Shown piece after piece: positions 33,371-54,064 of a stretch of DNA of 64,000 bases. The position numbers and the translations under genes were made by a program. Numbering within the stretch: the first letter of the stretch is position 1; each line of letters opens with the position of its first letter. The notes beneath the pieces are model-generated. The model had not been told where the DNA came from. It saw only the letters and a program-made list of their open reading frames with translations, and ran no database searches. Origin of the DNA: Pirellulales bacterium (GTDB lineage: Bacteria; Planctomycetota; Planctomycetia; Pirellulales; PALSA-1355); the NCBI GenBank assembly GCA_022844125.1, contig JALHMI010000010.1:124001-188000 (forward strand), given 5' to 3'.

Positions 33371-33757
33371 AAGCCAACTCTCCAATCCCGCTGCCTGCTG
33401 CGCGATGATCGGCGCATTGCGAGAAGCGCCGAATCGAGCGAGAGTGCCCGCAGTCGCACGCAGGGGAATGCTTCTTCTCGGTTCACAATCCCCACCTGCG
33501 AGTTTAGCAACCAGCCAGTCCATGCGCCAAGCAATAAGATTCGAGCCGGTCGCGGGACGGAGCAATCGCTACTCTGGGCCGAGTGGAAGTCGATGTTTCT
33601 CGGAGAAATACCCTGGCGGATGTGCCGGATCTAACGAGCGTCTGCTTATGCGAACCCTTGAAAAAGAAATCCGGGGCCCTCGACCGATATTCTCCCTGCC
33701 GGTACAATGCATCTCTCGGCGGGACAAGCACGCAAGTGCCCGCCGGACACCATACAT
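33371..33757. other. Intergenic stretch upstream of the tRNA
   Basis: 387 bp with no supported gene. The frame of the preceding gene remains open leftward but lacks homologous features. It presumably holds the promoters of the tRNA and of the divergent repeat-protein gene. Confidence 0.45.
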
Positions 33758-33837
<80 letters not shown>

Positions 33838-33908
33838 ACTAAAGCCGCTGAAACATAGGACTTACTTACCTGCCGATGGTCGGCAGTGCAGCCTGAAAAC
33901 CGGAAGCG

Positions 33909-33930
33909 CAAAACGGTACATACCGTTTTG
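33909..33930. promoter_or_regulatory. Inverted CAAAACGGTA pair, probable integrase/excisionase arm site
   Basis: Perfect 10-bp arms CAAAACGGTA and TACCGTTTTG are separated by two bases, between attL and the integrase start. The same half-site recurs at the other end of the element (44515-44566). Confidence 0.6.
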
Positions 33931-33950
33931 GCACAACGGAGGTTGCACAA

Positions 33951-35228
33951 ATGCCGCGTCTCACTCGGTCAATCCCCAGGTATCGTAAGCACAAGGCGAG
34001 CGGCAAAGCCGTCGTCGCTCTCTCCGGCCAAGACTTCTATCTTGGCCCCTACGGCACGAAGATCAGCAAGCTCGAATACGATCGCGTCGTCGTGGAGTGG
34101 CTGGCTCGTGGGAGGACTCCCATCCTCGACGAAGATCGCGACGGCGAGATTACGATCGTTGAACTGATCGCCGCCTATCGCAAGCACGCCGAGCGGTACT
34201 ATCGCAAGGCCGGCAGAGTCACCAACGAAGTGACGGCCATTCTCTCCGCCGCTGGCATCGCCAAGCAGCTATACGCCCGCGATCCGGCCAGCAGTTTCGG
34301 CCCGCTCAAGCTACAGGCCGTGCAACAGACGATGATCCGCGCCGGCTGGTCCCGCCGTCACATCAACAAGCAGATCAGCCGCATCGTCCGCATGTTCGGC
34401 TGGGGCGTCTCCCAGGAACTTGTCCCCGGCGCTGTGGCCCATGCTCTCCGCGAGGTCAAAGGCCTGCACAAAGGCCGCACCGAGGCCCGCGAAACCGCCC
34501 CCGTGATGCCCGTCGAGGATAGCGTCGTGAATGCCACCCTCGAGCACCTGCCCGCCGTCGTGGCCGATATGGTTCGCATTCAGCGCCTCACCGGCTGCCG
34601 CCCTGAGGAAGTCTGTTTGATCCGGCCGTGCGACATCGACACCACCACCGCCGAGGCCTGGCCGTATCGTCCTATGTCCCACAAGACGGAACACAAGGGC
34701 CGCGAGCGCGTGATCTTCATCGGCCCCAAGGCGCAGGCCATCCTCCGGCCGTACCTACTCCGCGATAAGCAGACGTTTTGCTTTTCACCGGCCGAGGCCG
34801 AACGGAAGCGGCTAGCCCAGCGGCACGAAGAACGCACGACCCCGCTTTCCTGCGGAAACCGCCCAGGAACCAACCGCAAGGCCCAGCGCGAGCGGCCGGC
34901 CGGCGAGCGGTACACCACTGGCAGCTATCGTCGCGCGATCCACCGCGCTTGCGAGATGGCTTTCCAGATGCCGCCAGCACTTCGCCGAGGCCCCAAGGGC
35001 GAGACGCTCGAGGGCAAGGCCCAGCGGATCAAGCTGGCCCGCGAGTGGCGCGCTAAGCACACGTGGCACCCCAACCAGCTAAGGCATTCTGCCGCCACGG
35101 AAATCCGCAAACGCTTCGGACTGGAAGCGGCGCAGGTCACGCTTGGCCACGCCGCCGCAGACGTAACCCAGATTTACGCCGAGCGTGATCTGCTACAGGC
35201 CGCCGCCGTCATGGCGCAGGTTGGCTAA
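33951..35228 (+). CDS. int: Tyrosine recombinase/integrase of the phage-satellite-like element
   Basis: 425 residues; GGAGG lies eight bases before the ATG. The N-terminal region (about 1-60) is arm-binding-like, a core-binding SAM-like domain spans about 65-165, and the catalytic domain about 185-425. Catalytic residues are visible: Arg in TGCRPEEVCLI, His-x-x-Arg in HPNQLRHSAAT, His in LGHAAADVTQ and the nucleophile Tyr in QIYAERDL. It should recombine the tRNA-Met attachment site. It is oriented away from the tRNA, directly beside attL. Confidence 0.95.
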   Translation: MPRLTRSIPRYRKHKASGKAVVALSGQDFYLGPYGTKISKLEYDRVVVEWLARGRTPILDEDRDGEITIVELIAAYRKHAERYYRKAGRVTNEVTAILSAAGIAKQLYARDPASSFGPLKLQAVQQTMIRAGWSRRHINKQISRIVRMFGWGVSQELVPGAVAHALREVKGLHKGRTEARETAPVMPVEDSVVNATLEHLPAVVADMVRIQRLTGCRPEEVCLIRPCDIDTTTAEAWPYRPMSHKTEHKGRERVIFIGPKAQAILRPYLLRDKQTFCFSPAEAERKRLAQRHEERTTPLSCGNRPGTNRKAQRERPAGERYTTGSYRRAIHRACEMAFQMPPALRRGPKGETLEGKAQRIKLAREWRAKHTWHPNQLRHSAATEIRKRFGLEAAQVTLGHAAADVTQIYAERDLLQAAAVMAQVG

Positions 35229-35345
35229 TCGGTTAGAATGATTCTCATTGCTGGCTTTGGGGAGTAGCTACCCCGTGGCTGGCCGCATGATGCGGCGCAT
35301 ACCCCGTATCGTGCGGCTGGCCGAGCCGGCGGAAAGGTATGCGAC

Positions 35346-35909
35346 ATGAGGGAATTACAGTTTCCGTATGAGTACGGCTCTGATCTTCATTGGCTTTGGG
35401 GGTGGGGAGCCCGACTTGAGGCCGCAGTCCTCGACGACCTGCCAATCTCACGGCACGTATGGTTTCTGCTGTACCCCGACCGGAACGCCAAGGACGCAAT
35501 GGCCCGGTTCAGCATCAAGTACCCGCTGATCATCAAGCAGGTACAAGACTGCCTCGACTTCGCCGATCGGCGGTACGACGAGTTTCGTGCCGAGGACACA
35601 GAGGACACGCAAGCCAATCTTGCCGATGCAATGTTCTCACTCTGCGGACGGATTCTCTCATGCTCGAAGATCATTGCCGAACACGAAACACCAGCCACGC
35701 CGCCCGTCGCACCGTCAAACGATGCGCGCGATAAATGGCTGTACGAAAATCGAAAGAAAGGCATGGGCTGGCAGTCGCTCGAGATCGCCCTGAGGAAGAA
35801 GATTACGAGCCAGAAGAAGCACCCCTGGGAACCGATCGGAATGTCCGCCATCCGGCAGGCCGTCGATCGTTACATCGCCCGCCACAATCTGCCGCCGCTT
35901 CCGCAATGA
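35346..35909 (+). CDS. Element protein of unknown function
   Basis: 187 residues. A GGCGGAAAGG site precedes the ATG at moderate distance. The N-terminal half is aromatic-rich (YEYGSDLHWLWGWGARLE) and the C-terminal half basic (NRKKGMGWQSLEIALRKKI; IRQAVDRYIARHNLPPLPQ), possibly a DNA-contacting region. No family recognised. The position right after the integrase fits an accessory or regulatory protein. The 118-bp gap before it has several small hairpins. Confidence 0.6.
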   Translation: MRELQFPYEYGSDLHWLWGWGARLEAAVLDDLPISRHVWFLLYPDRNAKDAMARFSIKYPLIIKQVQDCLDFADRRYDEFRAEDTEDTQANLADAMFSLCGRILSCSKIIAEHETPATPPVAPSNDARDKWLYENRKKGMGWQSLEIALRKKITSQKKHPWEPIGMSAIRQAVDRYIARHNLPPLPQ

Positions 35910-35931
35910 AAACGCGGCCGTCGCGCTGGCG

Positions 35932-35972
35932 GTTAAATTGCAGTTAAATTGCACTGCCAAAGCGTGCAATTT
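35932..35972. promoter_or_regulatory. Operator-like tandem and inverted AAATTGCA repeats
   Basis: GTTAAATTGCA occurs twice in tandem (35932-35942, 35943-35953). The second copy also forms an inverted repeat, AAATTGCAC (35946-35954) with GTGCAATTT (35964-35972). It lies about 65 bp before the DUF1580 gene and is a candidate operator for an element repressor. Confidence 0.5.
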
Positions 35973-36037
35973 TCGTTTGCCAACATCCTCGCAAAGATGC
36001 GTGCATGGTCACGTTTTCAATTGCGAGGAATAACAAA

Positions 36038-36319
36038 ATGGCAATCGACATCAATTCTGAAACGCTCATTCCGTTGAGCGAGGCCCCTGCTGAAATCCCG
36101 GGCCGCCCTTCTCTCTGCACGCTTTGGCGATGGCGCCTCAAAGGTGTGAAGGGCCGCAAGCTGGAATCGCTGGCGCTGGGCGGGAAAATTTTTACCTCCC
36201 GCGAGGCAATCAAACGGTTCGTCCAGCACCAGGGCGGCACCGAGGCCTCGAAGATCAGCACACCGGCCAAGCGCGAGCGATCCATCGCTCAGGCCGAACG
36301 GGAACTAGCTGACATCTGA
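36038..36319 (+). CDS. DUF1580-family small DNA-binding-like protein
   Basis: 93 residues from ATG 36038, with GAGGAATAAC just upstream; an in-frame ATG at 36005 is not supported by a ribosome site. It follows the planctomycete DUF1580 pattern: MAIDINSETLIPLSEAPAEI, then GRPSLCTLWRWRLKGVKG and FTSREAIKRFVQ. This resembles a MerR/excisionase-type helix-turn-helix reading of a sequence-specific site. A role as excisionase or regulator of the element is likely but not shown. Confidence 0.75.
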   Translation: MAIDINSETLIPLSEAPAEIPGRPSLCTLWRWRLKGVKGRKLESLALGGKIFTSREAIKRFVQHQGGTEASKISTPAKRERSIAQAERELADI

Positions 36320-36391
36320 TCACCACACGCCCGCACCGATCGGGCAGGTGCGCGCCGTGATTCTCATCGCCCGAAGTATGGAGATGAAGTT

Positions 36392-36781
36392 ATGGAAACG
36401 AGCAAGATTCGCCCAATCCTCGAACTGACCGACGGCTGGAACATCCTGCCGAAAGCCGACGCCGAAAAGCTCGGCGTTCCGAAAAAGCTGATCAAGCGAC
36501 TGTACAAGCGCCATCAATCACGGCCTACGATCGGCGGAACGATCATCTTCGATGGTCGCGAGGTTGATCACTTCAACGGAGTGCACGGCCTCGATCTTCT
36601 CGAAGCAATCGCGGACATGATCGGCGCTGATCGGAGGGGCGTGATTGCCTACGGCCGTGGCGCTCGCGCCGAGCAACTGAAGGCGGCAATTCTAGTTCGC
36701 CTCGACGAGATGGAACTCGAAGCCGAACTATCGGCCGGCGTCACCCGGGCGCATGCGTATTCGGAAGGGGGTGCGGCATGA
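36392..36781 (+). CDS. Small element protein of unknown function
   Basis: 129 residues, with a GGAGATG site seven bases before ATG. It contains a possible helix-turn-helix-like segment (GWNILPKADAEKLGVPKKLI, followed by KRLYKRHQSRPTIGG) in the first 50 residues, suggesting DNA recognition, and a helical acidic C-terminus. The stop overlaps the next start (ATGA at 36778). Confidence 0.55.
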   Translation: METSKIRPILELTDGWNILPKADAEKLGVPKKLIKRLYKRHQSRPTIGGTIIFDGREVDHFNGVHGLDLLEAIADMIGADRRGVIAYGRGARAEQLKAAILVRLDEMELEAELSAGVTRAHAYSEGGAA

Positions 36782-37011
36782 ACTACCCCGTCAACACGCC
36801 GCCGATCAAGGCCGAGGCCGCGTCCAAACTGAACTTCTTTTTGCTGACCGTCAACGATGAGCCCCTCAGCCTGTTTGAGACCTTGGAGGATGCACTCAAA
36901 GGCGCCGATGAAGCGCAAACAGAAGGCGCGATCAACATCTACGAGGAGCATTGCGAGATCTTCGAGTTCAAGGCCGGCATATGCGTTAGCTGTACCGGCG
37001 ATCTTTTCTAA
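36778..37011 (+). CDS. Small acidic element protein
   Basis: 77 residues, translationally coupled to the previous gene by ATGA. Acidic, with alternating strand-like and helical segments (LNFFLLTVNDEPLSLFETLE, IYEEHCEIFEFKAGI) and three Cys near the end. No family recognised; coupling and codon use support it as real. Confidence 0.5.
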   Translation: MNYPVNTPPIKAEAASKLNFFLLTVNDEPLSLFETLEDALKGADEAQTEGAINIYEEHCEIFEFKAGICVSCTGDLF

Positions 37012-37035
37012 CCACCAAGCGAAGGAGTTTTTCAG

Positions 37036-37503
37036 ATGACTACGAAAGAAGAAGTTTCGATGCCAAAGGTGCCGGACTGGGTGAACGATCACAACACCGA
37101 TTGTGTGTTGGTAGATGGCGAATGGAATCGCAACCCCTGGTGCGATCAAGAGGCTCGTTCGATCGGCCGGGAGGCTGCCGCCGATTACCCGTTCCGACTG
37201 ATTCCGGTGCGTAGCTTCGGCGCCGATCCGATTATCGTCGGGCTCAACCTAGGAAGCCTGCTGTTCTGGTGGGCCGAGCAACAGGCGAGGCAGCGTGCAT
37301 GGTGGGCCGACGAATTCCACCTCGTCTCACCGCACGGCGTGGCTCGAGTCGGGTTTTCTCACAGCGACAACGGATCGCTGGCCAGCCTCTGGATTAGTAC
37401 CGAAAGCGTTGACGAGCGTTCGGCGTTTAATCGTGCCATGCATCAAGTGGCGGACATGACGCTGGAATGCTTTGGCCCCAAGCGCGTCACGTTTGAATTC
37501 TGA
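37036..37503 (+). CDS. Small element protein, Trp-rich, unknown function
   Basis: 155 residues; AAGGAG lies 11 bases before the ATG. Trp-rich segments (WNRNPWCDQEA, LLFWWAEQQARQRAWWADEF) and a final FGPKRVTFEF. No family recognised. It is followed by a stable hairpin that may end this transcript. Confidence 0.55.
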   Translation: MTTKEEVSMPKVPDWVNDHNTDCVLVDGEWNRNPWCDQEARSIGREAAADYPFRLIPVRSFGADPIIVGLNLGSLLFWWAEQQARQRAWWADEFHLVSPHGVARVGFSHSDNGSLASLWISTESVDERSAFNRAMHQVADMTLECFGPKRVTFEF

Positions 37504-37519
37504 TCACCCATCAAAGGCG

Positions 37520-37544
37520 GCGGCCTCCGTTGCAGGGAGGCCGC
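37520..37544 (+). terminator. Hairpin terminator candidate
   Basis: Perfect nine-base stem GCGGCCTCC / GGAGGCCGC with a seven-base loop, 17 bases after the stop of the preceding gene, followed by a pyrimidine-rich run (CCCCTCTTTCTC) and not a clean T tract. Confidence 0.5.
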
Positions 37545-37572
37545 TGCCCCTCTTTCTCAAGGAAACAAGAGC

Positions 37573-37899
37573 ATGAAATATCCTACCGCAAAATCGCCGC
37601 CCCGCCACCTCCTTTGCGAAATCGTTCTCGATCTCTTGGCCCTCGATCGCGCCGGCCGTCTCGGTGAAGCTTACGAGCGATGCAGGCTAGCACTTCGAGA
37701 GTACCAAGAGCATGCCCGAGGTCGAACCATCGGCGCCGGCGTGACCGTCGATTTACTAGCCCTCGACGTAGCCCGGCTGGTCGGTTGCGAGATCGGCATT
37801 GTTCGATCAGCAGCTCGCGAGGCCTTGATCGACTCCCCGGCCGGCGCCGTGGCCCGCGAACTTCGCCAGATGAGGCAGGAGCGGAGGGGCAATCGATGA
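37573..37899 (+). CDS. Small helical element protein coupled to the DUF3987 gene
   Basis: 108 residues, with AAGGAAA upstream. Two similar helical halves (LDLLALDRAGRLGEAYERC and VDLLALDVARLVGCEIGI) suggest an internal duplication. The stop overlaps the start of the DUF3987 gene (ATGA at 37896), implying that the two act together. Confidence 0.55.
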   Translation: MKYPTAKSPPRHLLCEIVLDLLALDRAGRLGEAYERCRLALREYQEHARGRTIGAGVTVDLLALDVARLVGCEIGIVRSAAREALIDSPAGAVARELRQMRQERRGNR

Positions 37900-39362
37900 C
37901 CAATCAGCCCCATGCGTGTGACACAACCCCAGCGAATCCCGCGAAAACGGAGGTTGTGTCACTGTCACACTATAGAGAGTTTCCAATTGAGGCCCTGCCG
38001 GACCCCTGCCGGGTGTTCATCTCGGAAGCATCAGCCGCGATCGGATGTAACGCGGCTTATGTCGGTGTCCCGCTACTGGCCACGCTGGCAGGGTCGATCG
38101 GTAACTCAGCAGTGATCGAATTGAAACGTGGCTGGTGCGAGCCGGCGGTTATCTGGTCCCTCACGATCGGTGAGAGCGGAACCACCAAAAGCCCCGCGCT
38201 TGATCGTGTGCTGTCACCACTCCACCGCACGCAGCTTGATCTAGTCCGCGATCACCAGCACACGATGGCAGACCATGAGCAGGCGCTCGCCTTGCACGCG
38301 GCCGACTTTGCATCCTGGAAGGCCAAAGGCCGCGCCAAGGGCGGGCCACCACCGGAGGAACCACCCGAGCCGACCTGCCCGCGCATCATCGTCAGCGACA
38401 CGACCGTCGAGGCGCTGGCCGTGATCCTGGCCGAGAATCCCCGAGGCCTACTGCTGGCCCGCGATGAACTGGCCGGCATGCTGCTGGGCATGAATCAATA
38501 TCGAGGCGGAAAGGGAGCCGACGCGCAGCACTTCCTGACAATGCACGGGGCGAGGCCCCTAGTGATCGACCGCAAGGGTGCGACCGGAGGCGGCAAAAAG
38601 CTGATCACGGTGCCGAGGGCCGCCCTCTCGATCACCGGAACCATTCAGCCCACGATCTTGCGCCAAGCCCTAGGGCGTGATCACTTCGAGAATGGATTGG
38701 CCGCGCGTTTCCTGTTCGCGGCGCCACCATCCAAGGCCAAACGCTGGACGGAGGCCGAACTCTCGGAGGGGACCGAACGCCAGTTGGCCGAACTTCACAA
38801 GCGTTTGTTATTCCAAGGGGGCGAGCCCGACGAGTGGGGCGAAATCCAACCGCAGGTTCTCTCCCTGACTCCCTCCGGGCGCGCCACTTGGGTTTCGTTC
38901 TACAACGAGCACGCCGAACGCTTGGCCGACCTCTCCGGGGACTTGGCCGCCACGTGGGCCAAGCTCGAAGGGTACGCCGCGCGGCTGGCCCTGGTGGTCC
39001 ACCTGGTCCGCCGTGAGTGGTTCGATCTCTCCCTCGAAGCCCAGGACGCCGTAGACGAGGCCAGCGTCAACGCAGGCGTCACGCTGTCCCGCTGGTTCGC
39101 CGGCGAGGCCCAAAGACTGTTTGGCCTGTTCCATGAAACCGACGACCAGCGTGAGCAGCGCGAGCTAGTCGAATGGATCAGACGCAAGGGCGGAGTGGTC
39201 GGTAATCGCGAGGCCCAGAGATCACGCAGATTCGCCAACAGTGAAGAATCGTACAAGGCGCTAGTGGCCCTGGTTGATGCAGGCCTTGGCCATTGGCAGG
39301 AAGTTCCCACTACCGAACGAGGCGGCAGGCCGAAAAGCGTATTCGTCCTACGTGACAGGTGA
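37896..39362 (+). CDS. DUF3987 (P-loop NTPase-like) replication protein of the element
   Basis: 488 residues from the coupled ATG. A P-loop-like segment GESGTTKSPALDRV (about 90-103) and a hydrophobic-acidic Walker B-like strand LLLARDELAG (about 184-193) match the DUF3987 family. A trailing region with HFENGLAARFLFA, TWAKLEGYAARLALV and a C-terminal winged-helix-like end (NSEESYKALVALVDAGL) follows. Such proteins are common in phages and integrative elements and are thought to act as helicase-like or primase-associated replication factors. Inverted GTGACACAACCCC repeats lie inside the first codons and directly after the stop. Confidence 0.8.
   Translation: MTNQPHACDTTPANPAKTEVVSLSHYREFPIEALPDPCRVFISEASAAIGCNAAYVGVPLLATLAGSIGNSAVIELKRGWCEPAVIWSLTIGESGTTKSPALDRVLSPLHRTQLDLVRDHQHTMADHEQALALHAADFASWKAKGRAKGGPPPEEPPEPTCPRIIVSDTTVEALAVILAENPRGLLLARDELAGMLLGMNQYRGGKGADAQHFLTMHGARPLVIDRKGATGGGKKLITVPRAALSITGTIQPTILRQALGRDHFENGLAARFLFAAPPSKAKRWTEAELSEGTERQLAELHKRLLFQGGEPDEWGEIQPQVLSLTPSGRATWVSFYNEHAERLADLSGDLAATWAKLEGYAARLALVVHLVRREWFDLSLEAQDAVDEASVNAGVTLSRWFAGEAQRLFGLFHETDDQREQRELVEWIRRKGGVVGNREAQRSRRFANSEESYKALVALVDAGLGHWQEVPTTERGGRPKSVFVLRDR
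37918..37962. repeat. Inverted repeat GTGACACAACC / GGTTGTGTCAC at the start of the DUF3987 gene
   Basis: Perfect 11-bp arms at 37918-37928 and 37952-37962, within codons 8-23. The left arm with its extension (GTGACACAACCCCA) is repeated exactly at 39359-39372. Confidence 0.7.
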
Positions 39363-39403
39363 CACAACCCCATAAACCGCGAGAGAAATGGGGGTTTTGT
39401 CAC
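39359..39403. repeat. Inverted repeat GTGACACAACCCCA / TGGGGGTTTTGTCAC after the DUF3987 gene
   Basis: The left arm (39359-39372) contains the stop codon and is identical to 37918-37931. The right arm (39389-39403) is complementary with one mismatch and one extra base. It may serve as terminator, operator or replication repeat. Confidence 0.65.
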
Positions 39404-39425
39404 AAACCATAGGAGATTTAATCCA

Positions 39426-39728
39426 ATGACCAAGAAAACCTACTCCCTGTTTGCCGTTCACGGAACCCAGCACTACGTCCGGTTGTGGGCGGTTATGAGC
39501 CCGGCCGCGGCGCTGATCGACGGCGTGCCCTTCGTCCAGTTTGGCAAAGACACCACGCCTTACTTGGCCCTAGAGCAAGCCATCGAGTGGGCCGAGCGTG
39601 AGGCAGAGCGTAACCCATCGTGGGCCACGTCCAGCAGCAACGCCAGCGGCATACCCGGCAAGGAACTGATCAAGGCGCTGCGCATCGCACGCGAGAAGCT
39701 CAACGCGGGCAGCTACACGGAGCAGTAA
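39426..39728 (+). CDS. Small element protein of unknown function
   Basis: 100 residues with a strong AGGAG eleven bases before ATG. A strand-rich front (KKTYSLFAVHGTQHYVRLWA) is followed by helical C-terminal segments. No family recognised. Confidence 0.55.
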   Translation: MTKKTYSLFAVHGTQHYVRLWAVMSPAAALIDGVPFVQFGKDTTPYLALEQAIEWAEREAERNPSWATSSSNASGIPGKELIKALRIAREKLNAGSYTEQ

Positions 39729-39731
39729 GCC

Positions 39732-39998
39732 ATGACCCGCTATCAAATCACCGTCCTGGCCGACTCGACAGCCTGCCTCACCGCGCTCCGTGCCGCTGCT
39801 GCTGATCAAGGCGTGACAGTCAAGTCAATCGAGCCCGAACGCCCGCGCTGTCCCAACTGTGGGCGTGCGTGCGTCGTGGTGCGATCACAGCCCGGTGAGA
39901 TTTTCATGAAACAGGAGTTCGGCTGCCGCGCGTGCAAGTACCTCTCGAGCGTCACGCGCCGCGTTCCGCTGAGTGAGTGCAACCGTCACAAGAAATAG
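39732..39998 (+). CDS. Small Cys-motif (zinc-ribbon-like) element protein
   Basis: 88 residues starting 3 bp after the previous stop, so probably co-translated. A Cys4-like arrangement, CPNCGRAC near residue 40 and GCRACKY near residue 65, suggests a zinc ribbon. An ACT-like N-terminal strand-helix pattern precedes it. Role unknown; such small zinc proteins often bind nucleic acid. Confidence 0.6.
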   Translation: MTRYQITVLADSTACLTALRAAAADQGVTVKSIEPERPRCPNCGRACVVVRSQPGEIFMKQEFGCRACKYLSSVTRRVPLSECNRHKK

Positions 39999-40344
39999 TC
40001 GCTACTGCAGTAGCAGACATAGGGTGTATCGCTGTGGAAGTTAATCAGCATTTTGCGACAATGAACTACGTGCTCGGAGCACAATCACCAGCCAACGCGA
40101 CCGCAGTCGTCTGTTCTTCTCCGTTCCGGCGGCTGCGGTTCGCGACGGTGACAAGGGGGTCAGGGGGAGCGCCGATTTACACAGCATCGAGCCCACGAAC
40201 GCCGCTAAGTTTCGCTCACGGCATCAAGGGTATTGAGGGTGGGGGTAAGAGCAAGAGCGCCGATTTACCAGGACTAAGCGCCCCCGAACGCCCCCAAGTC
40301 GCCGAACCTCGCGTACATTTCTGACGATTCCGACGAACTGTTGC
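39999..40344. other. Gap between early and structural gene blocks, no supported gene
   Basis: About 345 bp with only non-conserved short frames. It separates the replication-type genes from the packaging/capsid genes and probably contains a promoter for the latter; no clear consensus seen. Confidence 0.45.
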
Positions 40345-40980
40345 ATGCTGAAAACTCTCGACACCACCGCCTTGCGTTCCATCTTCGAGCCCGAGCGGGT
40401 GACGAACGACCAGATGATTAGCGAAGGTCGCACGATCCGCTCGAAGGTAGACCGCCGCCGCTTCGTGACGGTGCGGAACGCCAGCCGAGCGGCACAGCAA
40501 ATCGGAAAGCTGCCGACCACCGGCGAAGTTGTGCACCTCCTCCTCCGTGCAAATTCGTTTTCCTGTTTCGATGTTTTGCCCGCGATGATTGAACTCGCCG
40601 GACGACCAGCGGACGACGTGGTTCTCGCCACGCTTGGCGTCAACGAGCGGGCCGCCGAAGAACTCGACCGACTGGGCACCAGCGGCACCATCAAGAACTG
40701 CCGAATGATTCTCAGCCACTACTTTCGGTCGGTTGACCCTCAGCCCTTCGCCGTTACCTCCCAGGTATTCCAGCGGCACCACTGGCAACTTGGCGTGTGC
40801 CGGTCTCACGCCAAACTCATCATGGCAAGGTTCGGACGCGACCACTACGTCGCCGCCGGTTCTGGAAATCTTCGAAGCTGCCGCAGCGTTGAAAACATGG
40901 ACATCAGCAACGACCGCCGCTTGTACAAGTTCTATGCAGACTTTGTTGACGAGATGCTCGCCGGAGGGGATGCCCGATGA
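40345..40980 (+). CDS. Phospholipase D-like (HKD) protein
   Basis: 211 residues. The segment CRSHAKLIMARFGRDHYVAA followed by GSGNLRSC (about 152-180) fits a PLD-superfamily HxK(x)nG(S/G)xN motif. Only one HKD copy is present, so activity would need a dimer. Phage-linked PLD-like nucleases sit beside terminase genes, as here. The stop overlaps the terminase start (ATGA at 40977). Whether it is a nuclease, DNA-end processing factor or defence/anti-defence protein cannot be decided from sequence. Confidence 0.65.
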   Translation: MLKTLDTTALRSIFEPERVTNDQMISEGRTIRSKVDRRRFVTVRNASRAAQQIGKLPTTGEVVHLLLRANSFSCFDVLPAMIELAGRPADDVVLATLGVNERAAEELDRLGTSGTIKNCRMILSHYFRSVDPQPFAVTSQVFQRHHWQLGVCRSHAKLIMARFGRDHYVAAGSGNLRSCRSVENMDISNDRRLYKFYADFVDEMLAGGDAR

Positions 40981-41441
40981 AGGGACGCAAGCCGACTCCG
41001 CCCCAGGTTCACAAACTACGGGGCACGTTCAAGAAGTGCCGACACTCAGACACGCTCGACTTACCCACCTCGACGCCGGAACCGCCGGAGCACCTCGACG
41101 ACATCGCCCTCGACGAGTGGAACCGCCTCGTCGGTGAACTAGCCCAGGTCGGAACGCTTCACAAGCTCGACCGAACCTTGCTCGCCACCTACTGCGTGCT
41201 GTGGTCCCACCTCACGCAAGCCGAACGTGGAATTAGAGAGCACGGACTCGTCATCAAGGGAGCGACAGGAGCCGCACAGGCGAGCCCCTACTATTCGGTC
41301 GCGATGCGTGCTGCTTCACAGCTCACACGGATTGCCGCCGAGCTAGGACTCAGCCCGTCGAGCCGTGCCCGCCTGAAGGTGCAGCCGCCCGCAGACCAGG
41401 ACGACGAGTTTGAGCGAATGCTCAACGGGATGACCGCATGA
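40977..41441 (+). CDS. Phage terminase small subunit, P27 family
   Basis: 154 residues. It begins MKGRKPTPPQVHKLRGTFKK, the basic GRKP..K...G opening of P27-type small terminases, followed by PEHLDDIALDEWNRLVGELA, LDRTLLATYCVLWSHLTQAE and SPYYSVAMRAASQLTRIAAE with LGLSPSSRARL near the end. It should recognise the packaging site of element DNA. No large terminase follows, so packaging would depend on a helper phage or is defunct. Coupled by ATGA overlaps on both sides. Confidence 0.88.
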   Translation: MKGRKPTPPQVHKLRGTFKKCRHSDTLDLPTSTPEPPEHLDDIALDEWNRLVGELAQVGTLHKLDRTLLATYCVLWSHLTQAERGIREHGLVIKGATGAAQASPYYSVAMRAASQLTRIAAELGLSPSSRARLKVQPPADQDDEFERMLNGMTA

Positions 41442-41683
41442 ACATCGACACCATCGAAGCTACCGCAGGAGCCCTACGCCTCGCGAAGCTGATGCACTTC
41501 ATCCTCGAACGCAAGAGCGACGAAATGCTGCCCGATTGGAATGGCTTCATCGCATTCATGCACGACCAGTTTATCGCCACCGCCGAACAACACGGACTGA
41601 CAGACGACGAAATCGACCGCGAATTAGACGACGTGGACCGATGGGTCGCAGACCGCCGCAGAGAATTGATTGAACGCAACTAA
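41438..41683 (+). CDS. Small acidic element protein between terminase and capsid
   Basis: 81 residues, start overlapping the terminase stop (ATGA). Helical and acidic (DDEIDRELDDVDRWVADRRR). No family recognised; position fits a packaging or morphogenesis accessory. Confidence 0.55.
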   Translation: MNIDTIEATAGALRLAKLMHFILERKSDEMLPDWNGFIAFMHDQFIATAEQHGLTDDEIDRELDDVDRWVADRRRELIERN

Positions 41684-41716
41684 CAACATCGTGAGCACGG
41701 GGAGAAAGATGCCACG

Positions 41717-42781
41717 ATGTCCAAACACACATCGCCCAGGAACTTTATTCCGCACCGAGGGCAAGCTGTTGACGCCTTAGCCGCCAGAGCTTGGCTCAAC
41801 CATCAATGCACCAGCTCGCCGGGTGGTGAAGAAGCTGCCGCCAGCCTCCGCCACTACCGGGTGAACCCCGAGAATCGAAACCTCGCGCTTGAACTTCCGC
41901 GAGCCCATGCTCGACGAGAATTTTTCAACGCGCTGAACGGTGCCAGCCTTGCAACTGGCGGTGTGCTGTTGCCCGAGGGCTTCATCGGCGGCTGGATTCG
42001 TGCTCAGAGTGCCGTCGGCGCGATCCGCAACGCCGCGACAGTCTATCGCGTCGGGCATGGCGGAATCTGGAATCAGCCGTGGTGTGACGGCCGCGACATC
42101 GAAGGCGAAATCCTCGTCGAGAACAGGCCGAGCACACCCGACGACGATGTTGAATTCGCCCGAGGCACGTATCGCCTGCACAGATTCGCCTCACGCTCTA
42201 CCCGCGTGCCCAATTCGTTGCTTGAAGATTCGCCCGGCTTCGATGAGCAACTCGGCTACGAGCTTGGCGAGCAAGTAGCACGCCGCCGGAACCGGGCTTT
42301 CACGCACGGAACCGGCGTGAACGAGCCAGTCGGTATCGTCCCCCATGCCGTACAAGTGCCAGCAGCATCAACCGGCGACGTGACGCTAACCGACCTTAAG
42401 AATTTGCTTAAGGCAGTCGGTGACGCCCACGCAGATCCGAGCACAAGCGCGCTGATGGTTCACAAAGACTTGTTCGCTTCGCTGTGCTGTGCAGCCACGA
42501 GCGACGTTGCCGTCCGGTTTCCGTTCCGCGACGGGAAATTATTCGGCCTGTTTCCGGTGTTGTTAAATCCAGCGATGGACTCGACCGCCGAGAGCGGCAA
42601 GAAAACGGTGGTGTTCGGAAACTTCGCGCGATACGGCATCGCGGAAGCCGGAGCCGTCGAACTGCAAGCCGCGAAAGAGACGTACATCGAATACAACCAA
42701 ACCGTTTTCCGTGCCGTGCAGCCGTGTGATGGAAAAATCATGCAGCCCGCCGACAATCCGTTCGCCGTTCTCGTTCACTAA
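41717..42781 (+). CDS. HK97-type major capsid protein
   Basis: 354 residues. A short N-terminal region (about 60 residues, no long scaffold-like delta domain) is followed by HK97-fold signatures: ATGGVLLPEGFIGGWIRAQS, AIRNAATVYRV, HRFASRSTRVPNSLLEDSP, GFDEQLGYELGEQVARRRNR, AFTHGTGVNEPVGIV and a closing P-domain/A-domain end with VVFGNFARYGIAEAG. It would assemble the icosahedral head. In this element it precedes the protease gene, the reverse of the usual protease-then-capsid order. Confidence 0.85.
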   Translation: MSKHTSPRNFIPHRGQAVDALAARAWLNHQCTSSPGGEEAAASLRHYRVNPENRNLALELPRAHARREFFNALNGASLATGGVLLPEGFIGGWIRAQSAVGAIRNAATVYRVGHGGIWNQPWCDGRDIEGEILVENRPSTPDDDVEFARGTYRLHRFASRSTRVPNSLLEDSPGFDEQLGYELGEQVARRRNRAFTHGTGVNEPVGIVPHAVQVPAASTGDVTLTDLKNLLKAVGDAHADPSTSALMVHKDLFASLCCAATSDVAVRFPFRDGKLFGLFPVLLNPAMDSTAESGKKTVVFGNFARYGIAEAGAVELQAAKETYIEYNQTVFRAVQPCDGKIMQPADNPFAVLVH

Positions 42782-42794
42782 GGAGCCGATACCA

Positions 42795-43034
42795 ATGTCG
42801 AAACTGAAAGATTTGACCGCCGTCGTCCGCAACGCCACGCATAAACCCACCATCGTGAGGTTCGCTCAAAGCGTCGTGACCAATCGAGAATTCTTCGAGC
42901 CAGGTTCAGCGTACGAACTGCCCGCTGGGCAGGCGAAAGACTTCATCAATGCGAAGTTCTGCCGCGAAGTTGTCGATGCGGACGAACTGACATTTGCCCG
43001 CAACGAAATCGCACGCCGCCAAACAATCGACTAG
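42795..43034 (+). CDS. Small protein between capsid and protease genes
   Basis: 79 residues; AGGAG lies nine bases before the ATG. A strand-rich pattern (KPTIVRFAQSVVTNREFFEP, AYELPAGQAKDFINAKFC) may be a capsid accessory or decoration protein. No family recognised. Confidence 0.55.
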   Translation: MSKLKDLTAVVRNATHKPTIVRFAQSVVTNREFFEPGSAYELPAGQAKDFINAKFCREVVDADELTFARNEIARRQTID

Positions 43035-43044
43035 GAGCACCATC

Positions 43045-43818
43045 ATGGTTGCAAACGCACGAAGCGGCGAGCTAGCGATTCGCCGTGATATCGAATATGG
43101 CGATGGCGAGAAATTCGCCGCCAAGCTCGACGAACTGGGCGACGTGGACGAGATTCACCTCGCGATCAATTGCCACGGCGGAAGTGTTTTCGAGGCGCTG
43201 AGCATCGCGCACCAGTTGAACACGCACCCGGCCTACGTCGTGATCACGATCGAAGGCATCGCCGCGAGTGCCGCGAGCTATCTGGCCACGGCCGGCGATG
43301 AAATCGAGATCGCCGAGGGCGGGCTGTTCATGATCCACCGCGCGTCTACTGGCTCGATTGGCAACGCTGAGGATATGCGAAAAACCGCCGACCTGCTGGA
43401 GAAGATCGACCAGGAGATCAGCGGCATGTACGCCCGACGCACTGGCACCAGCCCACGCGATTGGCTCGAAGCCATGCGCCTCGAAAGTTGGTTCAACTCC
43501 GAGGAGCTGGCGAGTATCGGACTGGCCAGCGTGATTCCCTCGAAGCGAGCGCCGCAGGCCACAACCGCCCGAGCGATGCGACGGCCAGCGGCACGCACGG
43601 CCGCAACATCGGCCATCGTGAATAGGCTGCTGGCCACCAGCACGCCACGGCGACAAGCTGCGCCCCGATCTGTCACGGAGCAACTATCAGCCCTGGCCCG
43701 CCGTGCTGCGGAAGTCTCCGCGAGAGAGCGAACCGACGCGCGACTGTTGAACCGCGAGAACATCGTGCGGAACGCAGACGACCGAGAACAGGCCTTACGC
43801 TACCTCAAATGGAGTTGA
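43045..43818 (+). CDS. ClpP-like head maturation protease
   Basis: 257 residues from ATG 43045 with AGGAG upstream. ClpP-fold motifs of phage prohead proteases are visible: DEIHLAINCHGGSVFEALSI, the nucleophile Ser in IEGIAASAASYLATAGD, and the catalytic His in LFMIHRAST. The C-terminal ~75 residues are Arg/Ala-rich and could act as scaffold. It would process the capsid shell during maturation. It lies after the capsid gene with one small gene between. Confidence 0.85.
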   Translation: MVANARSGELAIRRDIEYGDGEKFAAKLDELGDVDEIHLAINCHGGSVFEALSIAHQLNTHPAYVVITIEGIAASAASYLATAGDEIEIAEGGLFMIHRASTGSIGNAEDMRKTADLLEKIDQEISGMYARRTGTSPRDWLEAMRLESWFNSEELASIGLASVIPSKRAPQATTARAMRRPAARTAATSAIVNRLLATSTPRRQAAPRSVTEQLSALARRAAEVSARERTDARLLNRENIVRNADDREQALRYLKWS

Positions 43819-43823
43819 ACCCC

Positions 43824-44189
43824 ATGCAAGTCGAACTGCGACGCATCCGCGCTGTGGGCCGCCCTGGCGACGACACGAGCGCCATCAAGGCCGCTCACCT
43901 GAAACACCTGCAAGGCATGGCGCAATCTGCGGCCGTGCTCAATCAAATTCACCAACTTGAAACCGAACTCAAGGGACCGAACATGACCGGAACTGTTATT
44001 CGCCTAGTGCTCGACAAGGGATTCTGTTTTCTCAAACGCGACGACGACGGCACGGATATTTTCCTGCACTGCAACGATCTCGGCGACGACGTGGCTTTCG
44101 ATGAGAGCCTATTTCAGCGACGGCTGACGTTCGACGTGACCGACGGCAAAGGCGGGAAGCAACGAGCCATCAACGCGAGGGCGACGTGA
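43824..44189 (+). CDS. Cold-shock-domain protein with N-terminal extension
   Basis: 121 residues from ATG 43824 (GGAGT just upstream). An internal ATG at 43984 with AAGGGA upstream would give a bare ~68-residue cold-shock domain. The domain starts MTGTVIRLVLDKGFCFLKRD, with GFCFL in place of GYGFI and DIFLHCNDL in place of DVFVHFSAI, both usual nucleic-acid-binding patches. The first ~50 residues are helical. The gene follows the protease by 5 bp. It may bind single-stranded DNA or RNA of the element. Confidence 0.65.
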   Translation: MQVELRRIRAVGRPGDDTSAIKAAHLKHLQGMAQSAAVLNQIHQLETELKGPNMTGTVIRLVLDKGFCFLKRDDDGTDIFLHCNDLGDDVAFDESLFQRRLTFDVTDGKGGKQRAINARAT

Positions 44190-44380
44190 TGAGCGAAGCC
44201 GACGGAACAATCTGCCGGCGGTATGTCGCACGCCAAGTATCACCGGCGGTAGAGGCTGGCCGACTGCGGCAAGACTTGTTGAACGTGGAAGCGGCGCTTG
44301 AGCAGGCCGAACGGCACGCCCGAAGCATCCGAGACACGCGCGACACGCTGCTGGCTCAACTCGTGAACCTGGACGACTGA
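44189..44380 (+). CDS. Small coiled-coil-like protein
   Basis: 63 residues from an ATG overlapping the preceding stop. Mostly helical with heptad-like leucines (LRQDLLNVEAALEQAERHAR). Last gene of the element before the attachment site. Unknown role. Confidence 0.5.
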   Translation: MSEADGTICRRYVARQVSPAVEAGRLRQDLLNVEAALEQAERHARSIRDTRDTLLAQLVNLDD

Positions 44381-44514
44381 GGGCGGTTCGCCAGCGGGCG
44401 ATCACCAGATCGCGATTCCAAGGGCCGACTCCGCCAATGGCCCAACACTCAGGCCGCGTATTGATCGTGCGGCAGACGCGAACCTATGCGATCGCGATCA
44501 CTTCGCGCTGATCC

Positions 44515-44566
44515 CAAAAACGGTAAAATCACGTTTCTACCGTTTTGCGTTTTCGACATACCGTTA
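44515..44566. promoter_or_regulatory. Repeated (T)ACCGTT half-sites at the right end of the element
   Basis: CAAAAACGGTA at 44515-44525 and TACCGTTTTG at 44538-44547 face each other, and a further TACCGTTA lies at 44559-44566. The same half-site forms a palindrome beside the integrase (33909-33930). Probable recombinase arm sites. Confidence 0.55.
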
Positions 44567-44581
44567 TTCTTCGAAGAATAA
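44564..44581. repeat. 18-bp perfect palindrome
   Basis: TTATTCTTCGAAGAATAA lies directly after the arm-type sites, about 100 bp from attR. Candidate binding site of an element regulator or excision factor. Confidence 0.5.
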
Positions 44582-44678
44582 GGGAATGTAGTGAAAGCGA
44601 TTGAAATGCCCCCGCAGAGCATTAGAATGCTCGAAACGCCCGCGTTTTCAGGCCTTTTCAGCGGCCGCCCAGTTCAAA

Positions 44679-44726
44679 CTCATAACCTCGAGGTCACAGG
44701 TTCGAATCCTGTCCCCGCTATTTTGA
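44679..44726. repeat. Attachment site attR/attM (48-bp repeat of tRNA-Met 3' end)
   Basis: Exact copy of 33790-33837. It contains the anticodon-loop-to-3'-end portion of the tRNA without the 5' half, so it is not a functional tRNA. It marks the right end of the satellite-like element and the left end of the DAB island. Confidence 0.93.
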
Positions 44727-45294
44727 CTAGTTGCGAGAAATCACCACTACTCGCAAGCCCCGGCAGACCCGGGGCTTTTTCTTGCGCGGTGGCTATGGTT
44801 TGCGGCTCCGTGCTCGCCACTGCGTGCGCTTGCTGCGCCGCATTCTGCGCCACCCCTGCACCCTTCGACTCCTCTCCAATGGCCCGGGCGAAATGCTCGT
44901 CGGTGGTCATCAGGTAGTGCTGCATCGCCACCTTTGGCGTGTTTCCTAGCCAAGTTGTGACCACCTGGACTGGAAATGACTCAACGAGCTCCGTTTCACG
45001 GCTGGCGCGCAGATTGTGGAATAGCCTGGGCCAGGGCTGCAGTCCTGCGCGACGGACGATCTTTTTCGGCAGGCCTCTTCGCAATTCGTGGGGCCGGGCC
45101 CGCGCCCCATTTGCCGATTCTGCGTCCATCGGCCGATTGAGTAACTTGCCTTCAAGCAGTTGCTCGACGCGGTTCTTTACGCTCTCGGCCGCTCGTTGCG
45201 ACACCTTGCCCAGCCGAATTGCCGGACAAGTGCCATAAGGGGCAACAAACAGAATCCGCCGTTTGCCACCAGGATCGTCTGCAATACTTGCCAT
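44680..45294 (-). pseudogene. Internally deleted tyrosine integrase remnant
   Basis: 204 codons. The first ~58 residues look like the N-terminal part of an integrase (ILFVAPYGTCPAIRLGKVSQ, then RAAESVKNRVEQLLEGKLLN). The sequence then jumps to the end of a catalytic domain: WPRLFHNLRASRETELVE and TTWLGNTPKVAMQHYLMTT, with HxxR and the nucleophile Tyr. About 200 residues of core, including the first catalytic Arg, are missing. The last codons (GTGFEPVTSRL) are the antisense of the tRNA repeat, so this integrase belonged to an element lying to the right and using the same tRNA. Confidence 0.75.
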
Positions 45295-45414
45295 CAATCA
45301 ACTTCCCAAAGCAACCTCGCCGTCGGGACGTACCAGTTCACGACGGGCGGTCAACGTGGCGGGTGGAAGATCGATTGGCAGAGAGAACATCGACTACAAC
45401 CTAAAGACTACGTG

Positions 45415-46050
45415 TCAACGATCGACGAAGATAAGCGACGGGCCGTGCAAGGCTGCGGTGGCCCGGAGCCACCGTATCTTCTCACCTTCGACAACTGCTC
45501 CATGCAGTGCTATGTCTTCAGCATGGACTTGACAGTTAACGCTGGGCGAACGTATGAGCTGATCAAGTTGAAGGCAGACGTTGACCTCTGCACACTCTTG
45601 ATTGGACAGCCTCAGCCCTTGCTTCCAGCGCCGATGGGCCAAGTGCCTGAGGTCCGTAAGTGACGCATCTCGCAGATGCGAGCATCCGCTTGTTTTTGGG
45701 CTCCTGCCGAGCACAGTCTTATCCAGGAAACTACACGGCGTGTGGCCTACCACGAGGATGTCGCTTACCGGAAAAAGAGCCAGGGATACCTCAACCGGAC
45801 TGGCAGCACCCGGTTCCGCGGGCTCGACCAGATTCCCAAAGTTCTGGAGGACGAATACGGGGAACCTCTTGTCGATCAGCGTGAACGGATCCCCCCGCAA
45901 GTCTGAACAGGTGATCACGAGAACGCCTGCGCGCGGCGGAGTCGTACCAGCGAGCAAACCCTGCGTGTTACCAATCGCTTGGCTGAGCAATTGGACTTCG
46001 GGGTTGCCGTTAAATGAGAAACGAGATCGTTGCGGGAAGTCTCCTTTCAT
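45415..46050 (-). CDS. Beta-carbonic-anhydrase-like protein encoded with dabA
   Basis: 211 residues from an ATG that overlaps the dabA stop (ATGA), with AAGGGGG seven bases upstream; a longer frame into dabA is rejected. The beta-CA zinc site is complete: Cys48, Asp50 and Arg52 in VITCSDLR, then His103 and Cys106 in VVGHTPC; QNFGNLV matches the usual AGN block. No signal peptide is seen, so it should be cytosolic, unlike the Tat-exported enzyme at 20957. The C-terminal half diverges from standard enzymes. It either equilibrates CO2/bicarbonate in the cytosol or works with DabA directly. Confidence 0.8.
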   Translation of the reverse strand: MKGDFPQRSRFSFNGNPEVQLLSQAIGNTQGLLAGTTPPRAGVLVITCSDLRGDPFTLIDKRFPVFVLQNFGNLVEPAEPGAASPVEVSLALFPVSDILVVGHTPCSFLDKTVLGRSPKTSGCSHLRDASLTDLRHLAHRRWKQGLRLSNQECAEVNVCLQLDQLIRSPSVNCQVHAEDIALHGAVVEGEKIRWLRATAALHGPSLIFVDR

Positions 46051-48590
46051 GCCGCCCCCTTCCAGGAGCCATTCGGCTGATATTCGAAGTAGTTGTGGCC
46101 CTCGGCTGACACAAGTCGTACCCATTTGTTCAGAACCAAGTCGCGGACCATCGTATGCTTGGCGATGACCTGGTTGATCGCTGAGCGCGGCGCTTCGATG
46201 ACAACGAGCAGGCGCAAAGGTTCATGGCGGTAGGATACGCCATCGTGCACCGATTGCATCGGGAGGCCGGGCCGTAGATCGCCACCGTTACCTAGCACGA
46301 CTCCCAGTTTTCCAACAACATTGTGAAGCACCTTGTCGCCGCTGCCAAAAAACCGGTTGTCGACGGTCGCCGCAAAGTACTGCATGTTGATCCAGTTCGT
46401 GACGATCATCGGAGCGGTCATGATTAGCTCCAGGACCTTGCCGTCGGGGTCGCGGGCATGTTCGTAGTTGTGCAAGAACGTGCGTCCTCCCAGGTTGAGG
46501 CCGGCGGTCCGCTGACGCGAGCCCACGATGAACGCGGCGTTTCCGGCGAGTCCCCATTCGGGCCGCACCTCCGACCAGTCCCGGCTCCGCTTCAGTAAAT
46601 CGTTTCCCCTTCGGCAACCGAGCAGGCGAGCCCGTTCGTCGCGGGTGCGTGCACCGGCTAGTTCAAGCCATCTCCGGAGATCACGCCAGATCCGTTGACT
46701 TGTGGGCTGCGAGGGAGTCGTGGTGAATCGGACTTCGTCGGTCGTCGTGTCGTGCACTGCCGACAAAAAGACGGTGTCCTCGGGAATTTCAATGGCCTGC
46801 GTAAGGAGTCGCTCGCGAACACATTTGTCGTTCAGGATAGCGGCCGCCAACATCGCATTGGCCTGTCCGGACTTTCCGCCGCAGGCGCCACAATCGAGGC
46901 CGGCACGGAACGGATTGTTAACGGTCGAACTCTCATGGCCGCAGAGCACGACAATTCGAGCGAAGTCCTGGATCAGCCCCAAGTTCTGCAGAATCGCACG
47001 CGCGATCTCAGCGCGCTCATCGATCGTCAATCCAAACGTCCCGTGCTTATCTAGCACAGGAGCCAGAGCGTGGCGCAAGTGCCTTGGAACGCCGTCAAAC
47101 TTCCCATTCACTACCGGCTTCGTAATGCTCAACGAGTCGGTGGCAAGCCTGGCTGCGAACAGTAGCCCGGTGGACTCGACATAGGCGAAGCATGAAGTTG
47201 CAGAGGTCTTGAAGTTTTTCCAGACCGCTCGCCAGTCGCGCACCGCCTGCCTCCGCGCGATGGCATGGTCACATGCACCGGCGTCAGCCTGGGGTATTCC
47301 CTCGGCAATCCGGTACTTGGGTTTCAACAGCACCGGGCACTGCGCAAGTCCGTCCTTGTCGCCAAGTGGCACGTACTCGAACGGAATTCCGAAAAACCCG
47401 GCGAAGCCAAGCGTCTCGACTCGGTCGCTGGCGCCCTCCAGATTGCGTCGAAACGGCTCGGAGCGGACGTCGATGCAGAATACGATCTGAACGTCCTTCC
47501 GTGCGGCACTAGCATAATTGCTGTTTGAGTTGCAGCGAATGTTGTGCAACAGCTTTCGGCGGTACGCAATTTCGCAAGCGGCCTGACAGACATAGCGGAT
47601 AAACTCGTCTTCCTGCGGGGCCGAATGATCTTGCGACCTGCTCCGCTCCATGAGTGCGGTCCAGCCTTCCAGTGCTGTCGTCGATCCGACACTTACGACA
47701 AGTGCTCCTTCGTAGGCGAGGCGAATGGCCAGCAGACCCAGCAAGTCTTCGTTCGCGAACTGATTGGACTCATCTCGATCATCCAGTCCCTTGAGGTAGC
47801 AAGCCCAACCAAAGCTGGCGTATAAATGCCTGGTCAGATACGGGCGCCATAAAGCGCTAGGAATCCCCAGCAGCGTAAGCACGTATCGGATGCAGCCCTT
47901 CGCAGTGCTGGGCAATGTTTCGACAAACGAGCGGAAACCGCGAAGTCCGAGGAGCTCCAATCGCTGGTCCAGTGAGGCAGCTTTTTTCCAGGCGGCATAG
48001 AACGACAAGTGCTGCCAGGGGCTGCTCCAGATGGACTGACCCTCGTCGAAATGAGTCGCTAATTGCTTGGCAACTTCTTCATCAAAATGCGAACTCCACT
48101 CCGTTCGTTGCTCTCGATCGAGCAGTTCCGAGATCGTGCGGAACGGCTCCTTGTCGCGAGTTGCCTGGTCCGGTGCGCTGCGGGCAGTCAATCGCTCGGC
48201 AATCAGCTGCGGCGTGGCGGAGAAAGGCTGAAGTCCATCCAGTTCTAGGCATTCTTCGAGAGCTTCCGCGACATCTGTGAGCTCAAACTTCCCTGACGCG
48301 AACGCTTCTCGGAAATAGTCCATCGACATCAGCAACTGGGCACCAGCGTGGTGTCGGAGGTGCTGATGCACGTTCAGCAGGCTCTCGTTCGACTGGGACA
48401 CGAAGGGATTGACGGCCACGAATTCGCTTAGCGGCCAAAGTGGCGGAATCTGCCGGGCCAGAGTCTGTAGTAAGTCATCCAATATTTCGGGCTGGCTGGC
48501 TACTGTCGGGTGTCGAACGATAGGTCGTGCGCAGTTCTGTTCATCCATAGTGGAAGTCGGCCGGGGCTGGAGATTCGAGACGATCATCAT
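46047..48590 (-). CDS. dabA: DabA (DUF2309) inorganic carbon transporter subunit, island copy
   Basis: 847 residues, full length for the family. N-terminal family block PPLWPLSEFVAVNPF (about 49-63). The zinc-site residues are Cys372 and Asp374 in FCIDVRSEPF, His552 in CGHESSTVNNP, and Cys567/Cys570 in DCGACGGK. Late blocks include GDLRPGLPMQSVHDG and LVLNKWVRL. It is a peripheral, beta-CA-like subunit that should convert CO2 to bicarbonate coupled to ion flow through DabB. It lies 31 bp after dabB and is translationally coupled to the following carbonic anhydrase gene. Base composition looks less GC-rich than the chromosomal copy at 3-1745. Confidence 0.92.
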   Translation of the reverse strand: MMIVSNLQPRPTSTMDEQNCARPIVRHPTVASQPEILDDLLQTLARQIPPLWPLSEFVAVNPFVSQSNESLLNVHQHLRHHAGAQLLMSMDYFREAFASGKFELTDVAEALEECLELDGLQPFSATPQLIAERLTARSAPDQATRDKEPFRTISELLDREQRTEWSSHFDEEVAKQLATHFDEGQSIWSSPWQHLSFYAAWKKAASLDQRLELLGLRGFRSFVETLPSTAKGCIRYVLTLLGIPSALWRPYLTRHLYASFGWACYLKGLDDRDESNQFANEDLLGLLAIRLAYEGALVVSVGSTTALEGWTALMERSRSQDHSAPQEDEFIRYVCQAACEIAYRRKLLHNIRCNSNSNYASAARKDVQIVFCIDVRSEPFRRNLEGASDRVETLGFAGFFGIPFEYVPLGDKDGLAQCPVLLKPKYRIAEGIPQADAGACDHAIARRQAVRDWRAVWKNFKTSATSCFAYVESTGLLFAARLATDSLSITKPVVNGKFDGVPRHLRHALAPVLDKHGTFGLTIDERAEIARAILQNLGLIQDFARIVVLCGHESSTVNNPFRAGLDCGACGGKSGQANAMLAAAILNDKCVRERLLTQAIEIPEDTVFLSAVHDTTTDEVRFTTTPSQPTSQRIWRDLRRWLELAGARTRDERARLLGCRRGNDLLKRSRDWSEVRPEWGLAGNAAFIVGSRQRTAGLNLGGRTFLHNYEHARDPDGKVLELIMTAPMIVTNWINMQYFAATVDNRFFGSGDKVLHNVVGKLGVVLGNGGDLRPGLPMQSVHDGVSYRHEPLRLLVVIEAPRSAINQVIAKHTMVRDLVLNKWVRLVSAEGHNYFEYQPNGSWKGAA

Positions 48591-48621
48591 GGGATCCTTT
48601 ATGCGAATTTCGTGGCTTGAG

Positions 48622-50220: not shown

Positions 50221-50246
50221 GACGCGCTCCTGTAAGTGCCCACAAA

Positions 50247-50290
50247 TTGCGATTTACAATACGCGATTTATAATATGCGATAACTATGTC
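50247..50290. promoter_or_regulatory. Three tandem 14-bp repeats over a divergent promoter region
   Basis: GCGATTTACAATAC, GCGATTTATAATAT and GCGATAACTATGTC follow one another at exactly 14-bp spacing from 50249. TTGCGA at 50247-50252 and TATAAT at 50269-50274, 16 bp apart, could be a rightward promoter for the regulator gene. The dab operon starts on the other side at 50220. Candidate operator for the regulator at 50443. Confidence 0.55.
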
Positions 50291-50442
50291 GTCAATTGCA
50301 GCTCAGTGGTTTTTTCGGCTCGACAGGCCGCGTCTCTGAAGACAACAGCCTTCCAATACGCGAATCTGATTTCGTAATTGCCAGAACGCATTTCCTGGAT
50401 TAGACTTAGGAGTTGACGCCAGACATCTACGGAGAACGCCCG

Positions 50443-50829: not shown

Positions 50830-50895
50830 CTGTCGACAATTCTGGCGGGATTTTGCCCCGCAGAGTTGGTCGATCGTGCCGACGCGGGATGCGCC

Positions 50896-52680: not shown

Positions 52681-52701
52681 GCCTTTGAACGGAAGGAGTT
52701 A

Positions 52702-54057: not shown

Positions 54058-54064
54058 AGCTTAC

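Follow-up and report, generated by a model that had tools for sequence, protein, structure and literature searches.

Descriptions of phage satellites come chiefly from Proteobacteria, Firmicutes, Actinobacteria and marine bacteria such as cyanobacteria. The phage-inducible chromosomal islands (PICIs) and Staphylococcus aureus pathogenicity islands (SaPIs) that encode a small terminase (TerS) have an integrase, a replication gene and a TerS that redirects the packaging of the helper (PMC6092414), and the capsid-forming PICIs (cf-PICIs) also encode a portal, a large terminase (TerL), an HNH endonuclease and connectors (PMC10690885, PMC13230959). Packaging of SaPIbov5 relies on helper functions (PMC5052747). 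In mycobacteria, the phiRv elements have been termed PICI-like (PMC10654092), and the only assigned genes of phiBN42_1 are reported to be those for an integrase, an excisionase, a primase, a protease and a capsid (PMC3986857). Here we describe an element in a 64,000-nucleotide stretch of the genome of a Pirellulales bacterium of the Planctomycetota (GCA_022844125.1, contig JALHMI010000010.1, positions 124,001 to 188,000), referred to below as the window. The sequence shows that the element has defined ends, lies at a tRNA-Met gene and carries an integrase, a replicative helicase, a TerS, a capsid and a head protease of its own. We suggest, with a probability of about 0.6, that it is an integrative PICI-like phage satellite that makes small heads with the TerL, portal and tail of a helper; we infer that it depends on a helper, is induced and forms particles.

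The element is bounded by perfect 48-bp direct repeats at a spacing of 10,889 bp, which match exactly the limits (33838-44726) proposed in a first-pass annotation made by a model from the sequence. The left repeat overlaps the 3' half of the tRNA gene and, because it forms the 3' part of that gene, the tRNA remains intact after insertion. The genes listed in that annotation (integrase, DUF1580, DUF3987, PLD-like, P27-type TerS, HK97-type capsid and ClpP-like protease) were all recovered with Pfam and PHROGs profiles (Table 1). Read by eye, the motif residues of the integrase (R, HxxR and H...Y) are all there, and the serine and histidine motifs of the protease are kept. The gaps are short, as had also been stated: there are five 4-bp start/stop overlaps within the element, including those between the nuclease and TerS and between TerS and the 81-aa protein, and the longest gap is given as the 298 bp before attR. 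The overlaps indicate a compact, translationally coupled gene set free of deletion scars. The capsid gene does precede the protease gene, an order rightly called unusual when compared with the order portal-protease-capsid in two prophages of planctomycetes whose protease is of the same family (L037 and L040 in our locus numbering).

The annotation had found no frame resembling a portal, TerL or tail protein, and both profile searches and the size of the open reading frames (ORFs) agree with it. When 20 proteins of the element were scanned against Pfam and PHROGs at E<=1, none matched portal, TerL or tail families, with the single marginal exception of TerS itself, which matched 'minor tail' in PHROGs (E 0.011). 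The longest unassigned ORF on either strand has about 210 aa, compared with 380-596 aa for planctomycete portals (n=10) and 518-639 aa for planctomycete TerL (n=11). The absence of a portal and a TerL is therefore firm. There were no recognisable lysis genes in the element. Its replication module consists of the DUF3987/phrog_2373 helicase only, and no primase, initiator or origin was identified in it. The DUF1580 protein is probably an excisionase or helix-turn-helix (HTH) regulator; no regulator of the Stl or AlpA type was identified, and this sole HTH candidate may take that role. The small proteins gave no convincing PADLOC match for a role in defence. The 81-aa protein was considered as a detached scaffold domain, but its profile score, at about rank 280 of 1000, fell among those of the shuffles.

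We surveyed up to 297 genomes of the same bacterial class, one genome per species, for the capsid, TerS and portal families and then read the loci, some of which end at contig ends. The portal and TerL profiles were built from planctomycete prophages, and very divergent types could escape them. Three kinds of loci were obtained. Ordinary prophages have the arrangement TerS-TerL-portal-capsid (L035, L037, L038, L040, L042, L044 and L061). At least six elements of the class carry a TerS and a capsid without TerL or portal, and five of these are bounded by repeats: L066 (9,857 bp, 45-bp repeats) and L087 (9,159 bp, 44-bp repeats) at tRNA-Lys, L068 (9,462 bp, 45-bp repeats) at tRNA-Arg, L069 (9,840 bp, 47-bp repeats) at tRNA-Thr, and L065 (6,538 bp, 25-bp repeat); L067 has a serine integrase. 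When their main proteins were scanned against PHROGs, L065, L066, L067, L069 and L087 gave no portal or TerL, and a 143-aa protein of L067 had weak matches to tail proteins. The third kind has TerS only; examples are L063, with an integrase, DUF3987 and TerS between 39-bp repeats at tRNA-Arg, and L058, which lies at tRNA-Met and has a primase-polymerase-like ORF in addition to an integrase and TerS. A 9,950-bp viral contig (IMGVR_UViG_3300032053_004114, L133) also has a TerS, a capsid and a serine recombinase without TerL or portal, and L072, L074/L075 and L039 have a capsid and an integrase with no recognised portal. The nearest relative of the window element is L039 (contig JABISG010000079.1 of a Planctomycetaceae metagenome-assembled genome), and there is no PF04860 portal anywhere in that genome. 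The DUF3987 proteins of the two are 43% identical, but that of the window lacks an N-terminal part found in L039. Portal-less elements with TerS and a capsid thus recur in other planctomycetes, mostly at tRNA genes. The first-pass annotation had remarked that a capsid-forming satellite in this phylum would be new; we retain the satellite, but with at least six further elements in the class it is not a solitary case.

No close relatives of the window capsid were found in IMG/VR, and phage records, among the matches listed, gave only matches below 30% to it. Scans based on DUF3987 yielded 25 loci in genomes and none in IMG/VR; most of the 25 are planctomycete elements that have neither capsid nor TerS. 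We also considered L032-L034, which have no PF04860 or PF03354 match nearby, as satellites, and set them aside as tail-bearing or unclear; by eye, one ORF of L032 resembles a tape measure and one of L033 a tail tube.

A maximum-likelihood tree built from 37 capsids placed eight of them in one supported group (95/85); no portal was recognised in the elements that they come from (L065, L066, L067, L069, L072, L073, L087 and L133). The window capsid pairs with that of L039 (95/88), and the pair lies among capsids of planctomycete prophages, in a group supported at 100/98; several tips, including that of the window, are long, and the exact placement is uncertain. Because the capsids of the window and L039 are nested among prophage capsids, apart from the satellite group, the strategy of doing without a portal seems to have more than one origin, and the window element would be a separate capture from prophages. 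We see an even chance that these loci represent a widespread, undescribed planctomycete class of mostly tRNA-integrated satellites of 6.5-11 kb, with TerS and their own capsid, without portal and TerL, and with capsids that parted from those of phages long ago. The window element would then have come to the same strategy independently, as a second case, and its scaffold domain would be a shortened one.

We propose that, upon infection by a helper or induction of a helper prophage, the integrase and the DUF1580-type factor would excise the element at the 48-bp repeats and DUF3987 would drive its replication. TerS, perhaps with the PLD nuclease, may mark the DNA of the element and recruit the TerL of the helper. 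The capsid, cut by the ClpP-type protease of the element, would form small heads around the helper portal, and connectors and tails of the helper would finish the particle. Possible helper genes exist in the same genome, in which contig C5 (L078) carries a separate tailed prophage region with an adaptor and a tape measure as well as a portal, a protease and a capsid, and which has three TerL genes. Because there is no second P27-type TerS in this genome, the helper may come from outside.

Instead of forming heads of its own, the capsid might act like Ccm of SaPIbov5, co-assembling with the helper capsid and shrinking or poisoning helper heads, with TerS directing the packaging. In an alignment of 22 capsids, only 80 residues precede the conserved core in the window capsid, against 128-224 in the 21 relatives, the closest included, except L034 (275), for which the gene was probably called from too early a start. 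The stop-to-stop frame has only 365 codons, 11 more than the called gene, so the short N-terminus is not an error of the start site. The AlphaFold model (mean predicted local distance difference test score 71) has the HK97 fold, with residues 1-82 mostly poorly defined. Ccm is described as a protein of about 355 aa in which the HK97 fold spans residues 83-355 and the delta domain lacks 44 residues relative to that of the helper; it shrinks helper heads and cannot stand in for the helper capsid (PMC5052747). By analogy, the short N-terminus of the window capsid suggests a role in head size. However, the likeness to Ccm is one of published length and fold only, the window element has a head protease that has not been reported as needed by Ccm-type elements, and the other planctomycete satellites have N-terminal regions of full length. 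We consider a Ccm-like function unlikely, though it is the main rival as to mechanism.

It is less probable still that the element is the remnant of a deleted prophage that kept its ends, TerS, capsid and protease by chance. The window capsid nests among capsids from TerS-TerL-portal loci, and most of the plan would result if TerL and portal had simply been lost from their place between TerS and capsid. Nevertheless, the capsid-protease order is reversed relative to prophages, the junctions are tight, and L074, which also has no recognised portal, encodes a homologue of the 187-aa protein. We prefer the satellite, as the first-pass annotation did, because the plan without portal and TerL recurs in independently integrated elements with a mostly satellite-only capsid group, and because the excision ends and ORFs are intact, the catalytic motifs seemingly kept and the genes translationally coupled. 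A domesticated capsid island serving the host, similar to an encapsulin or a gene transfer agent, is very improbable. Foldseek matched the capsid model best to a gene transfer agent capsid, and then to phage capsids, the cf-PICI EcCI2 (9gyi), HK97 and encapsulins, but HK97-fold matches are common to all such capsids, and the locus is a mobile element with an integrase, attachment sites and TerS and without a cargo-enzyme pair. Several points weigh against the satellite. A number of genes of the element have no assigned function. The contig of L039 stops inside the capsid gene, and its lack of portal and TerL is seen only up to there. We found no helper whose TerS/TerL pair is a close match, and the C5 prophage uses a protease family other than that of the window element.

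Table 1. Features of the element and its insertion site (positions in the window).
Feature	Position	Strand	Evidence or remark
tRNA-Met (CAT), integration target	33757..33832	+	ARAGORN; same tRNA in 37/39 genomes searched
attL, 48-bp direct repeat	33790..33837	+	
Tyrosine integrase, 425 aa	33951..35228	+	PF00589 1.4e-9; phrog_1 6e-21
187-aa protein	35346..35909	+	homologue (E 1e-9) in L074, another portal-less capsid element
DUF1580 protein	36005..36319	+	PF07618 1e-11
129-aa protein, no assignment	36392..36781	+	Pfam/PHROGs scans
77-aa protein, no assignment	36778..37011	+	4-bp overlap with preceding 129-aa gene
155-aa protein, no assignment	37036..37503	+	Pfam/PHROGs scans
108-aa protein, no assignment	37573..37899	+	Pfam/PHROGs scans
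DUF3987 replicative helicase	37896..39362	+	PF13148 5e-66; phrog_2373 DNA helicase 5e-35
100-aa protein, no assignment	39426..39728	+	Pfam/PHROGs scans
88-aa zinc-ribbon-like protein	39732..39998	+	weak matches only
PLD-type (HKD) nuclease, 211 aa	40345..40980	+	phrog_16945 endonuclease 3e-11; HxK...GSGN motif by eye
P27-type small terminase TerS	40977..41441	+	PF05119 1e-25; phrog_83 5e-45
81-aa protein between TerS and capsid, no assignment	41438..41683	+	
HK97-fold major capsid protein, 354 aa	41717..42781	+	PF05065 1.4e-29; model and Foldseek
79-aa protein between capsid and protease, no assignment	42795..43034	+	
ClpP-like head maturation protease	43045..43818	+	PF00574 2e-23; phrog_94 4e-54
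Cold-shock-domain protein	43809..44189	+	PF00313 9e-7
64-aa protein, no assignment	44186..44380	+	
attR, 48-bp direct repeat	44679..44726	+	

Downstream of attR, the minus strand encodes a 205-aa fragment of an integrase (44680-45297), to which the integrases of L056 and L058 are related. The tRNA end occurs a third time, in degenerate form, near 58223-58252. Because of these two features, 44680-58252 is probably an island that entered this tRNA-Met site earlier. It contains genes for DabA (PF10070), a DabB-like antiporter and outer-membrane efflux, HlyD and ABC transporter proteins, and its G+C content is about 0.55-0.60, rising again past 58 kb.

Some features of the surveyed loci may be recorded here. 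A conserved protein of 126-130 aa is found beside TerS or capsid in L067 (9508-12599), L068 (7179-10325) and L072 (9487-11645), and a 143-aa protein lies 3' of the capsid in both L067 and L068; together they could form a satellite-specific cassette. L074 and L075 occur in one genome and have near-identical capsids, different integrases and other genes, and no portal. In L082, L083, L091 and L092 there are TerS-TerL pairs for which our profile set gave no portal, capsid or integrase in the fetched stretch; these are possibly another type of element, or prophages with unfamiliar portals. L064 has two similar P27-type TerS genes in tandem (10559-11436).

None of the papers searched pairs 'phage satellites' with planctomycetes, which argues only weakly for novelty. 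Elements that have TerS and capsid and lack portal and TerL fall between classical PICIs and cf-PICIs, and they raise the question of whether the shell of a satellite can take a foreign portal and motor, and whether the length of the N-terminal domain sets the head size. The planctomycete elements also yield profiles for satellites that current finders may miss.

Compared with known systems, the window element is not a complete prophage, which would have portal, TerL and tail genes within it. It resembles cf-PICIs in its own capsid, head protease and TerS, in the absence of tail genes and in a capsid fold similar to that of EcCI2. It is not a cf-PICI in the strict sense, however, since such an element would have portal, TerL, HNH endonuclease and connectors, none of which is present. 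With SaPIbov5 it shares an HK97-fold satellite capsid homologue with a shortened N-terminal domain, judged by published length and fold (PMC5052747), and it differs in adding a head protease and its own TerS. Like the TerS-encoding PICIs it has an integrase, a replication gene and TerS, whereas classical PICIs use the capsid of the helper and the window element encodes one, with no regulator of the Stl/AlpA type identified. In the broad sense of PICI, it has site-specific integration with its own integrase and a replication module (helicase). Nearest in gene content are the mycobacterial elements of the phiRv1/phiRv2 and phiBN42_1 type, followed by the TerS-type PICIs and the Ccm-type SaPIs. 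These mycobacterial candidate PICIs have, like the window element, about 9-11 kb, a site-specific integrase, a replication gene, a prohead protease and a major capsid. The window element differs from them in coming from another phylum, in having DUF3987 in place of a primase, in its P27-type TerS and PLD nuclease, and in the capsid preceding the protease. By gene content, as an element of about 10 kb with an integrase, a replication gene, a protease and a capsid and no tail or portal, it fits the phiRv1/phiBN42_1 type.

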